A stretch of DNA of 64,000 nucleotides from Amycolatopsis sp. cg9 (GTDB taxonomy: Bacteria > Actinomycetota > Actinomycetes > Mycobacteriales > Pseudonocardiaceae). Below, piece by piece: positions 5,687-52,516 of this stretch (position 1 is the first letter of the stretch; each line of letters opens with the position of its first letter). The position numbers and the translations under genes are program-made. The notes under the pieces were generated by a model. That model was not told the DNA's origin. It searched no databases and saw only the letters and a program-made list of their open reading frames with translations. Where the stretch lies: NCBI RefSeq assembly GCF_041346945.1, contig NZ_CP166850.1, positions 9,780,501 to 9,844,500 of the forward strand, written 5' to 3'.

Positions 5687-6733
5687 ATGCCCGAAATCCT
5701 GACCGGGCCGGCGTTGCGCGCCTTCGCGCACGCGCTGCCCAAGGTCGAACTGCACGTCCACCTGGTCGGCTCGGCGAGCCTGCCGACCGTGCTCGAACTG
5801 GCCCGGCGGCGGCCGGCCGCCGGCGTCCCCACCGACGAGCGCGAGCTCGCGGAGTTCTTCACCTTCCGCGACTTCAGCCACTTCCTCACCGTCTACCTCG
5901 CGGTCACCTCCCTGGTCCGCGACCGCCACGACGTCCACACGCTGGTGACCGGCCTGGCCGCCGACCTCGCCGCGCAGACCTGCCGCTACGCCGAGGTCAC
6001 CGTGACGCCGTACAACCACCTGCTCGACGGCGTGCCCGGCGACGAACTCCTGTCCGGGCTGGAAACCGGCCGGGCCCGCGCCGCCGAACTGGGCGTGGAA
6101 CTGGCCTGGTGCTTCGACATCCCGGGCGAAAAGGGGGTGCGCGCCGGCCGGGAGACGCTCGTGTTCGCGCTGCGCGAACGCCCTGAGGGCCTGGTGTCCT
6201 TCGGGCTGGGCGGCCCGGAGCCGGGGGTCGGCCGCGCGCAGTTCGAGCCGTTCTTCACGCGGGCGCGGGAGGCCGGGCTGCACAGCGTCCCGCACGCGGG
6301 TGAAACCACCGGCCCGGCCACGATCTGGTCCGCGCTGCACGACCTCGGCGCCGAGCGGATCGGCCACGGCACCAGCTGCGCCGCCGACCCGGCCCTGCTC
6401 GAACATTTTGCGGCGCACCGGATCCCGCTCGAAGTGTGCCCGACGTCGAACGTCCGGACCGGACAGGTCGGCAGCGTCGCCGCGCACCCGGTGCGGCGCA
6501 TGCTCGACCACGGAGTCGTCGTCACGCTCAACACCGACGACCCGCCGATGTTCGGCGCCACGCTGACCGGCGAGTACGTCGCCGTCGCCGAAGCGCTCGG
6601 GCTCACCGCGGCCGAGCTGGCCCGGCTCGCGGGGAACGCCGTCGACGCGTCCTTCCTCGGTGAGCGGCGCAAAGCCGGTCTGCGGAGTGAGATCGCGAAA
6701 ATGACATTGCCGGACCCCGGGAGCTTCGCCTAG
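5687..6733 (+). CDS. Adenosine deaminase-family nucleoside deaminase
   Basis: The 348-residue amidohydrolase keeps every metal and catalytic residue of the adenosine deaminase family: His23 and His25 (ELHVHLVGSA), Glu206 in HAGE, His227 in IGHG, and Asp284-Asp285 in LNTDDPPMFG. The position that normally carries Asp after HVHL, which in mammalian adenosine deaminase contacts the ribose 5'-hydroxyl, is Val27. That favours a nucleoside modified at the 5' position, and I recall Streptomyces aminodeoxyfutalosine deaminase-like proteins with a similar HVxHVGSA start. Reaction class (hydrolytic 6-amino deamination) is secure, the substrate is not. The gene is preceded by a short ORF and followed at once by a structured RNA region. 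Confidence 0.85.
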   Translation: MPEILTGPALRAFAHALPKVELHVHLVGSASLPTVLELARRRPAAGVPTDERELAEFFTFRDFSHFLTVYLAVTSLVRDRHDVHTLVTGLAADLAAQTCRYAEVTVTPYNHLLDGVPGDELLSGLETGRARAAELGVELAWCFDIPGEKGVRAGRETLVFALRERPEGLVSFGLGGPEPGVGRAQFEPFFTRAREAGLHSVPHAGETTGPATIWSALHDLGAERIGHGTSCAADPALLEHFAAHRIPLEVCPTSNVRTGQVGSVAAHPVRRMLDHGVVVTLNTDDPPMFGATLTGEYVAVAEALGLTAAELARLAGNAVDASFLGERRKAGLRSEIAKMTLPDPGSFA

Positions 6734-6736
6734 CGT
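6707..6736 (+). promoter_or_regulatory. Promoter for the structured RNA, overlapping the deaminase stop codon
   Basis: TTGCCG and TAGCGT are separated by 18 bases and match the sigma-A pattern of actinobacteria. The -10 hexamer begins with the TAG stop codon of the deaminase gene. Initiation about seven bases downstream would place the 5' end just before the folded region. Confidence 0.5.
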
Positions 6737-6742
6737 GGAAGT

Positions 6743-6990
6743 ACACGAGAGAGGAGGTGGTCCAAAGTTGTATTCCAACAGGACTCGTGAGGTGGCTGTC
6801 CGCTAGCGGATGGCACGTGGAGGACTTTGAGCAGCGCTACAGCTGAGCCACCTTCTGGCTCATCGCCTGCTCCACGTGATGCCTGATAGCGAATACCAGG
6901 CAGTCACCGTGCCCCCGGGGTTCCCGAGCACCAGTCCGGCTCGGGCTCAAGCGTTTGACGGCGCTTGAGAGGCACCCCGGGGGTTCCTCA
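6743..6990 (+). ncRNA. Candidate structured non-coding RNA (about 250 nt), class not recognised
   Basis: The region after the deaminase gene folds into many perfect helices, far more than chance: CACGTGGAG 6814-6822 with 6870-6878, GAGCCA 6845-6850 with 6856-6861, TGCCTG 6880-6885 with 6897-6902, and a 10-base-pair closing helix CCCCCGGGGT 6912-6921 with 6974-6983. The last encloses two hairpins, CCCGAGC 6923-6929/6939-6945 and CTCAAGCG 6946-6953/6962-6969, giving a three-way junction. A GGAGG at 6753 precedes a TTG-started 12-codon frame (MYSNRTREVAVR, 6768-6806) and an overlapping 29-codon GTG frame (6757-6846). It is not tRNA, tmRNA, RNase P RNA or SRP RNA by their signature sequences. The raiA-motif class, a large structured RNA common in actinobacteria, is the first known class I would test. 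Ends are approximate. Confidence 0.6.
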
Positions 6991-7091
6991 TCTGCGCAGG
7001 TCATGCCACCCGGCGTCGCGGGACGACCGTCCGGCGATCAGCGTTTCCCCGTTCTGTCCCCCGGACGGCTGAAGGTCGCTAGCCTGGACGC

Positions 7092-7664
7092 ATGCTCAGG
7101 CCCGACTACCCGATCACCACGGATCGGCTGCTCCTGCGCCCGTTCACGCCCGGCGACCTCGACGCGCTGAACTCCTTCCAGTCCCGCGCGGACGTCGCCC
7201 GCTACCTCTACTGGGGCCCGCGCAGCCGTGCCGAATCGGCCGCCGCGCTGGCGAAGCGCGTCCACAGCTCGACGCTGACGAAGGAAGGGCAGTTCCTGGC
7301 CGTGGCGGTCGAACTGGCCGCGACCGGGCAGCTGATCGGCGACCTGAACCTCGAGTGGCTCAGCAGCGAGCACCGCCAGGGCGAGATCGGGTTCGTCTTC
7401 CACCCGGACCACCACGGCAAGGGCCTGGCCGCGGAGGCGGCGACCGAACTGCTGCGGCTGGCCTTCGAAGACCTGGGGCTGCACCGCGTGGTCGGCCGGT
7501 GCGACGGCCGCAACACCGCGTCCGCCACCCTGATGGAACGCCTCGGGATGCGCCGGGAAGCGCACCTGAAGGAGAACGAGATCGTCAAGGGCGAGTGGAC
7601 CGACGAGCTGATCTACGCGATGCTCGAAGACGAGTGGAAGGACCTCCGGGCCGCCGGCGCGTAG
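7092..7664 (+). CDS. GNAT-family acetyltransferase (RimJ/RimL-like)
   Basis: The 190-residue protein has the RimJ/RimL layout: an N-terminal TDRLLLRPFTPGDLDAL, then a central core with IGFVFHPDHHGKGLAAEAATELLRLAF, in which the His-x-Gly-Lys-Gly-x-Ala segment is the acetyl-CoA pyrophosphate loop, and RCDGRNTASATLMERLGMRREAH near the C-terminus. Such enzymes acetylate N-termini or small-molecule amines; the substrate cannot be read. The ATG lies six bases after a TAGCCT -10 hexamer, so a leaderless transcript is likely. No partner gene is evident on either side. Confidence 0.85.
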   Translation: MLRPDYPITTDRLLLRPFTPGDLDALNSFQSRADVARYLYWGPRSRAESAAALAKRVHSSTLTKEGQFLAVAVELAATGQLIGDLNLEWLSSEHRQGEIGFVFHPDHHGKGLAAEAATELLRLAFEDLGLHRVVGRCDGRNTASATLMERLGMRREAHLKENEIVKGEWTDELIYAMLEDEWKDLRAAGA

Positions 7665-52329: not shown

Positions 52330-52415
52330 AGATGTTTCTCCTCTTTGGTTCCTTCGTTCGGCGCGAGTCTCCCACCCTGGGACCCATTTCGCCGGAGGAC
52401 GCTCGAGGAATGAGG

Positions 52416-52471
52416 CCGGTCTTCGATCGAAGCCCCCGGGACGCTTCCCGGGAACCACTACCGAGGACCGG
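52416..52471 (-). ncRNA. Structured pnp leader (Actino-pnp motif candidate)
   Basis: On the minus strand CCGGTC (52466-52471) pairs with GACCGG (52416-52421), enclosing a CCCGGG/CCCGGG hairpin (52447-52452 with 52435-52440) and a CTTCGATCGAAG hairpin (52421-52432). This compact structure lies in the 5' leader of pnp, exactly where the Actino-pnp RNA motif is known in actinobacteria; it probably mediates feedback by PNPase. I matched it by position and structure, not by alignment. Confidence 0.6.
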
Positions 52472-52516
52472 CGGACGGACCCTCGTGCGCGCTCGCGCCG
52501 TTCCTGTGGTGGTGCA

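Follow-up and report, generated by a model that had tools for sequence, protein, structure and literature searches.

A conserved micro-ORF and a 16S rRNA-complementary strip in Ms_IGR-5, a stand-alone RNA gene of Amycolatopsis sp. cg9 and other Actinomycetota: a possible ribosome-capturing RNA

The 64,000-nt stretch of Amycolatopsis sp. cg9 DNA analysed here (the window) contains, between a gene for an adenosine deaminase-like protein (A_deaminase) and genes for a GNAT acetyltransferase and then a dihydroorotate dehydrogenase (DHO_dh), an RNA gene that matches the Rfam family Ms_IGR-5 (RF02471) over the full length of the model (84.6 bits against a gathering threshold of 45, model positions 1–184 of 184, by cmscan). 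A structured RNA at 6743–6990 had been proposed in a sequence-only reading, and the model coordinates, 6743–6992, agree with it to within 2 nt. The same reading had called the RNA unexplained and had named the raiA-motif model as the first to be tried; the family proved to be catalogued already, and the Rfam search returned RF02471 instead of raiA. No raiA (RF03072) match was found at E up to 1 in 6600–7150 or at E up to 0.5 in 20 divergent relatives, and raiA identity was dropped on that basis; a whole-genome RF03072 search also gave no match and carries little weight, as its positive control likewise gave none. In a covariance-model scan no Rfam family other than Ms_IGR-5 matched the RNA stretch, and the genome as a whole has one RF02471 match. 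The expected lack of tRNA and tmRNA signatures was confirmed by ARAGORN, which reported 0 genes in the window. A phage or plasmid origin was dropped, the 250 nt having no match in phage or plasmid collections at blastn sensitivity. Apart from Ms_IGR-5, a single Rfam family passes its gathering threshold in the window: the cis-regulatory RNA Actino-pnp (RF01688), at 52415–52472 on the minus strand (68.2 bits).

The features of the RNA and its promoter region are collected in Table 1. The promoter hexamers TTGCCG and TAGCGT lie exactly where the sequence-only reading had placed them, and their elements are conserved in the class loci (n = 43, window included); the −35/−10 signal is weaker in 41 outer loci. 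A simple promoter/terminator consensus scan of the window scored nothing, these hexamers included. Upstream of the −35 element, at about −44 to −41, an A-run is conserved in class loci and is possibly an UP-like element. The gene that follows the RNA in the window begins 100 nt further on and has the same orientation. At the five genus loci compared, the RNA begins 10 nt past the same upstream gene cluster and is followed by one of two kinds of downstream cluster. When 158 loci are compared, the first gene downstream comes from many different families, and it is on the opposite strand (convergent) in 27/40, 27/41 and 31/70 loci, approximate counts that rest on heuristic (GC-frame) gene calls; no conserved co-directional downstream gene was found across the loci compared. 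Because the promoter is conserved and the neighbouring genes are not, Ms_IGR-5 is best regarded as a gene of its own, and the window RNA is a stand-alone RNA gene and a new member of this known Rfam family.

Table 1. Positions of the Ms_IGR-5 RNA gene, its promoter elements and its internal features (window coordinates).
Feature	Position	Strand	Basis
−35-like element TTGCCG	6707..6712	+	position; TTG near −36 conserved in 43 class loci
−10-like element TAGCGT	6731..6736	+	position; TAnnnT near −13 conserved in 43 class loci
RNA gene, RF02471 (Ms_IGR-5)	6743..6992	+	cmscan, full-length model match
P1 5′ strand, partner 6785–6789	6744..6748	+	covariation (helix 1)
17-nt strip complementary to 16S rRNA 3′ end (AGAGAGGAGGTGGTCCA, G-U allowed)	6748..6764	+	complement count; own-genome 16S end
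Shine-Dalgarno core GGAGG	6753..6757	+	sequence, loci comparison
P2 5′ strand GTCC, overlapping the 16S-complementary strip, rival of the pseudoknot for 6781–6784	6760..6763	+	supported within class only
Micro-ORF, TTG + 11 codons + TAG, reads LYSNRTREVAVR then stop, first residue formally fMet	6768..6806	+	sequence, loci comparison
GGACT pseudoknot strand (6781–6784 also the P2 3′ strand)	6781..6785	+	family-wide pairing test; window letters
P1 3′ strand, partner 6744–6748	6785..6789	+	covariation (helix 1)
P3 5′ strand GGTGGCTG, within ORF	6791..6798	+	covariation (helix 2)
P4 5′ strand CGCTA, contains first two bases of stop codon	6801..6805	+	covariation (helix 3)
Variable stem, 9 pairs: CACGTGGAG 6814–6822 with CTCCACGTG 6870–6878	6814..6878	+	sequence; region variable in alignment
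P4 3′ strand TAGCG	6887..6891	+	covariation (helix 3)
P3 3′ strand CAGTCACC	6901..6908	+	covariation (helix 2)
P6, 3′ stem, 10 pairs: CCCCCGGGGT 6912–6921 with ACCCCGGGGG 6974–6983	6912..6983	+	sequence, covariation (helix 4)
P7 hairpin CCCGAGC/GCTCGGG (6923/6939), conserved GTCC in loop	6923..6945	+	sequence, covariation (helix 5)
AGTCC in 3′ hairpin loop, partner of 6781–6785	6933..6937	+	family-wide pairing test; window letters
Hairpin inside P6: CTCAAGCG/CGCTTGAG	6946/6962	+	sequence

Ms_IGR-5 was reportedly first described by Li et al. in RNA in 2013. In the available portions of later reports, RNA-seq backs the Ms_IGR-5 of S. lividans, which the annotation places at 3.70 Mb (PMC8079986), the S. 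avermitilis sRNA forms its own transcription unit (PMC8780764), the M. smegmatis transcript ncMSMEG15794c overlaps IGR-5 (PMC10454040), and both M. abscessus and M. smegmatis have ribosome-protected reads over Ms_IGR-5, a result to which the authors add the caveat that most characterised non-coding RNAs of E. coli show a ribosome footprint (PMC4974804). From gene order we infer that scr4389 of S. coelicolor is the Streptomyces member. The literature searched for the family name or accession yielded no description of a function, and that searched for the family none of a micro-ORF, a 16S-tail complement or a pseudoknot. A smORF in the 5′UTR of Rv0813c (PMC11133741) was considered as the same ORF and is probably a different one, the accessible part of that report describing a transmembrane domain.

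RF02471 matched in 88/396 genomes drawn from across the phylum, with scores that exceed the cut-off in 50, and in 95/120 genomes of the window's own family. A model built from the 66-position 5′ domain alone (R1) matched in 176/396 phylum genomes at E up to 0.001 and in 157 at E below 1e-6, the E-values being rough and 19 of the 176 lying above 1e-6; it reached several families where RF02471 had found nothing. The remaining 220/396 genomes gave no R1 match, among them all 8 listed genomes of one family (f9), and Ms_IGR-5 is not universal in the phylum. Two R1 matches were seen in each of six genomes (G103, G045, G055, G293, G135 and G375), which possibly carry second copies. A pattern scan of named genomes gave at least 119 stretches; among the matches listed, 77/80 are labelled Actinomycetota or groups within it (Solirubrobacterales, Conexibacter, Patulibacter, Svornostia, Acidimicrobiia and others). 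The other three matches listed come from metagenome-assembled genomes labelled otherwise (L175, L197 and L234; Acidobacteriota, Chlamydiae and Tectomicrobia). A stretch of 55 nt in L197 recurs unchanged in L180, which is labelled Actinobacteria, so at least the label of L197 may be wrong; no identical twin was found for L175 or L234.

The helices named from the sequence, including a 9-pair stem and a 10-pair stem enclosing two hairpins, were all found. The segment folds better than 200/200 dinucleotide shuffles (z −4.1), and since the opposite strand folds equally well (z −4.1), folding alone cannot settle the strand; the plus strand is settled by the Rfam match and by covariation. Covariation across relatives, put forward in the sequence-only reading as a check, was strong: P1, P3, P4, P6 and P7 covary in an alignment (A1) of 84 sequences, window included, with L067, L072, L079 and L087 omitted here and from the pairing tests. 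Paired cells amount to 87.7% against 76.6 ± 0.4 in shuffled data, and changes on both sides of a pair were found in 301 cells against 96 ± 9, distributed over 26/33 pairs; when the helices were slid as a control, pairing fell to 33–41%. In these and the other comparisons the sequences are related and are not independent observations. P1, in relatives, is formed by the 5′ end and the stretch just before GAGGTG. The covarying fold has P4 and the 3′ stems in common with the RF02471 structure line, which lacks P1 and P3. Conversely, the 5′ helix of the Rfam line (positions 14–19/55–60), which uses part of the Shine-Dalgarno strip and conflicts with covarying P3, is paired in 82.9% of cells against 83.1 in shuffled data, with zero both-side changes in the 84 sequences. 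The 5′ helix of the RF02471 model could be revised. P6 is the likely end of the transcript.

A pseudoknot absent from the Rfam line joins GGAC(C), just 5′ of the P1 3′ strand, to GUCC in the P7 loop; the two stretches in the window are AGGACT (from 6780) and AGTCC (from 6933). In 83 loci, pairing of the two strands within their own sequence scored 13.87 against 12.02 ± 0.19 when partners were permuted, a value reached in 0/2000 permutations; one more locus had no loop, and the loop was misassigned in some rows (among them L001, which is the window's own, as well as L018 and L076), as it was in some rows of the two tests that follow. The excess is also present within the class and within the outer set separately. 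In 32 divergent loci outside the discovery set, 8/40 (L312–L318 and L325) being left out, the score was 14.25 against 12.26 ± 0.52 (0/2000), with compensating changes such as GUGACC/GGUCAC and GCGACC/GGUCGC. Among held-out own-family loci (69/70) the test was not significant (12.33 against 12.20, 411/2000), because both strands hardly vary there. The same GGAC can alternatively pair with GUCC at the end of the Shine-Dalgarno strip (P2). This pairing is supported within the class (0/2000) and finds no support in the outer set (696/2000), and P2 was dropped as a phylum-wide helix. Some loci (L312–L318, L067, L072 and L079) have a short form of the RNA, with an ORF of 10–12 codons, most ending GGGSS before the stop; the GGAC element is not clear in them, and they may lack the pseudoknot or have another form of it.

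The 5′ end of the RNA holds the Shine-Dalgarno GGAGG that had been noted in the sequence, and it is kept across much of the phylum. GGAGG is part of a longer strip, placed between P1 and P2 just after the P1 5′ strand, that is complementary to the 3′ end of 16S rRNA. The three 16S rRNA genes of the genome end GCGGCTGGATCACCTCCTTTCT and are followed by an AAGGA stretch; the position of the mature 3′ end is assumed. Complementarity in the window strip runs over 17 contiguous nt, and the next longest complement to the 16S tail on either strand of the 64 kb is 13. Taking the 16S tails of other genomes as equal to that of the window's genome, the complement is at least 16 nt in 85/88 loci and 16–19 nt in 70/70 held-out own-family loci. 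By duplex energy the window strip ranks first among 25,584 windows of 40 nt (−34.2 kcal/mol), with GC-rich windows close behind at −33.2; the random-flank control for duplex energy gave no valid mean, and the count of contiguous complements was used instead. The genome contains the 12-base core AGGAGGTGRTCC at 7 sites, of which three lie opposite the 16S rRNA genes, and the reversed pattern at 6, so the core is no commoner or rarer than chance would give. Since the core is not rare, the argument for the strip rests on its conservation and length.

Two short ORFs, of 12 and 29 codons, had been read from the window sequence, and both are present. The longer begins with GTG at 6757. The shorter, at 6768–6803 with its TAG at 6804–6806, is conserved across much of the phylum. 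In 84/88 of the first loci a stop (TAG 64, TGA 14, TAA 6) lies exactly five codons past the conserved GAG, and in one it lies six codons past. The held-out own-family loci have the stop at the same five-codon position in 70/70 (TAG 48, TGA 15, TAA 7) and a canonical start 10–11 nt past GGAGG in 70/70 (TTG 49, GTG 16, ATG 5). In the outer set of named genomes (80 loci listed minus 10 duplicates) the five-codon position holds in 69/70, with the stop one codon later in 1/70, and neither of the other two frames is open to such a stop in any of these loci. This GAG-anchored rule failed in L067, L072 and L079. A more general rule, an open frame from a start-like codon 7–13 nt past GGAGG to the stop in P4, fits these loci too and holds in 87/88 first, 70/70 own-family, 40/40 divergent and 70/70 outer loci (267/268); the two control frames of each set give 0 and 3, 0 and 0, 0 and 6, and 1 and 14. 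The exception, L068, has TTG at 5 nt. Because the general rule was framed after L067, L072, L079 and the 40 divergent loci had been seen, only the own-family 70 and the outer 70 count as held out for it, as they do for the GAG-anchored rule; the 88-locus counts include L067, L072, L079 and L087. Both R1 and RF02471 contain the Shine-Dalgarno and stop columns, so that their matches are not independent of the motif; the frame is not modelled in either.

Across the family the ORF has about 10–16 codons, and the three stop codons interchange among loci. The frame is also preserved in eight held-out loci whose ORF has 13 codons. In the short variants the frame relative to GAGGTG differs, yet start and stop shift together. 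The start is ATG, GTG or TTG in 195 of the 267 loci and CTG, ATT, ATC, ATA or ACG in 72, the commonest being TTG (107 of 267); weak start codons at such a frequency would be unusual for genes of such genomes. In 48/70 outer loci (e.g., L177, L179 and L181–L183) only near-cognate starts (CTG, ATC, ACG, ATA, ATT) are available, 8–9 nt past GGAGG, as if weak initiation itself were under selection there. Codons 2–4 of own-family ORFs have 34% GC and look like a stretch kept weakly structured. Further on, the reading frame runs through the 3′ strand of P1, the GGAC element, the 5′ strand of P3 and finally that of P4, where its stop codon lies. Based on these comparisons, the dual coding and regulatory character that the sequence-only reading had suggested is plausible: a discrete structured RNA, its promoter, a strong Shine-Dalgarno strip and a short ORF all stand, in an RNA that had been described before and is not raiA-like.

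The reading that we favour, tentatively and at slightly less than an even chance, is that Ms_IGR-5 may be a ribosome-capturing RNA whose fold is gated by translation of the micro-ORF; ribosome binding and an effect in trans are proposals drawn from sequence comparison. According to this proposal, 30S subunits would bind the 16S-complementary strip with far more pairing than an ordinary Shine-Dalgarno sequence provides, and initiation at the often weak start codon would hold initiating ribosomes for long; 16–17 pairs to the 16S tail together with an often weak start suggest long-lived initiation complexes. Because strands of P1, the GGAC element, P3 and P4 lie in the ORF, a ribosome translating it would have to melt P1, the pseudoknot or P2, P3 and P4, and a ribosome-free molecule would refold, allowing the core and the pseudoknot to form. 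Such an RNA would be a translation-gated switch or ribosome trap that acts in trans and not on the neighbouring gene, either through the supply of free 30S subunits or through exposure of the strands that ribosomes free. Leaderless mRNAs are common in Actinomycetota, and in a more specific version, which we consider quite doubtful, Ms_IGR-5 would titrate or park 30S subunits by covering their anti-Shine-Dalgarno tail and engaging them in very short, weakly initiated translation, shifting translation off Shine-Dalgarno-led mRNAs, for example to leaderless ones. Through its weak starts the RNA would then sense how stringent initiation is, and the trap would be reset by the pseudoknot.

The main rival, possible though on the unlikely side, is a regulatory RNA that acts in trans on specific targets by base pairing or protein binding, with translation of the micro-ORF controlling only its stability or folding. 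A stand-alone gene, strong structure and the conserved GTCC of the loop would all suit such an RNA, as would the melting of P1, P3 and P4 that translation would bring about through their strands within the ORF; the longest conserved complement found, however, is to 16S rRNA itself. That Ms_IGR-5 is instead the mRNA of a functional micropeptide appears improbable. Start, stop and frame are kept in 267/268 loci, LSDSS.GTLEV is frequent in outer loci, and among close pairs, which are not independent of one another, the class (50 against 29) and the outer training set (26 against 11) show more synonymous differences than neutrality predicts. There is, in contrast, no clear excess in the family (104 against 115), the outer test set (27 against 42) or the divergent loci (8 against 7), and a narrower family count, made without a neutral expectation, gave 11 synonymous to 135 non-synonymous differences. 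Moreover, GAG GTG never occurs in a synonymous form in the 61 family ORFs tabulated, as expected for a paired RNA strand, and in the short variants the RNA is translated in a different frame, with GGGSS as the ending in most. Selection on the peptide would thus seem weak or none, a judgement from sequence that falls short of proof of none; as the peptide is near neutral in most sets, it may be translation itself that is selected.

Two further explanations would give the RNA a role of a known type. Ribosome-mediated attenuators have a short ORF overlapping alternative helices, followed by a GC-rich 3′ stem, and the layout of Ms_IGR-5 matches this; in the window, moreover, the next gene, encoding the GNAT acetyltransferase, is co-directional at 100 nt. 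We nevertheless think it very improbable that the RNA is a cis-acting leader or attenuator of the downstream gene, given that downstream genes belong to many families, lie on the opposite strand in the 27/40, 27/41 and 31/70 loci mentioned above, and fall into two different clusters even among five genus loci; a cis leader was set aside on these non-conserved neighbours, with the heuristic gene calls as their basis. An RNA of the Ms1/6S type, binding RNA polymerase, or a raiA/ModT RNA, with the Shine-Dalgarno strip serving another purpose, is given equally little credence. Structured actinobacterial RNAs that bind RNA polymerase do exist (Ms1 and scr3559), and in the available parts of the reports on them the synteny of Ms1 centres on a HAD hydrolase (PMC9130861, PMC11077062), whereas the window neighbours are A_deaminase, GNAT and DHO_dh. 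By gene numbering, the place of scr3559 would be away from the 3.70 Mb at which the S. lividans Ms_IGR-5 is annotated in the accessible portion of PMC8079986, and the stretch matches no Rfam family but Ms_IGR-5. With different neighbours in the window and no model match, Ms1/6S identity was set aside.

Returning to the proposed ribosome-capturing RNA, its closest parallels are of several kinds. 6S and Ms1 are likewise stand-alone structured RNAs that bind a core machine of gene expression, and Ms1 is also actinobacterial; as described in the available parts of PMC9130861 and PMC11077062, they bind RNA polymerase, whereas the conserved feature of Ms_IGR-5 points to the ribosome. The raiA motif/ModT, according to the accessible part of PMC11706538, is likewise a large structured RNA and occurs in Bacillota and Actinomycetota; the window RNA differs in its lack of a raiA model match in 6600–7150, as do the 20 relatives. 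Like Ms_IGR-5, leader-peptide attenuators and translation-gated riboregulators place a short ORF over alternative helices, and the sequence of their peptide is not necessarily important; Ms_IGR-5 differs in having no conserved downstream gene. Near its 5′ end the consensus of CC2171 (RF01867), a Caulobacter sRNA, has GAAAGGAGGUGAUCCAGUG, which is the same full complement to the 16S tail and precedes a GUG that could be a start codon. One divergent locus, L057 (1479–1695, minus strand), matches CC2171 weakly, at 28.5 bits against a gathering threshold of 75. CC2171 is a possible parallel RNA in Alphaproteobacteria, which we offer as a lead and not as a claim of homology.

The family itself is known, catalogued as an sRNA for which the literature searched gave no stated function; what appears to be new here is the revised structure together with the family-wide anatomy and range, which we did not find described. 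Should the comparative picture hold, a translated micro-ORF whose product seems to be of little importance and a complement to nearly all of the 16S tail are carried by an RNA detected in 176/396 sampled genomes of the phylum. Ms_IGR-5 would then be the ribosome's counterpart of the 6S and Ms1 RNAs that bind RNA polymerase and, if ribosome binding is confirmed, a new kind of translation regulator. Short frames in RNAs regarded as non-coding may, on this evidence, be selected for their translation and not for the peptide.
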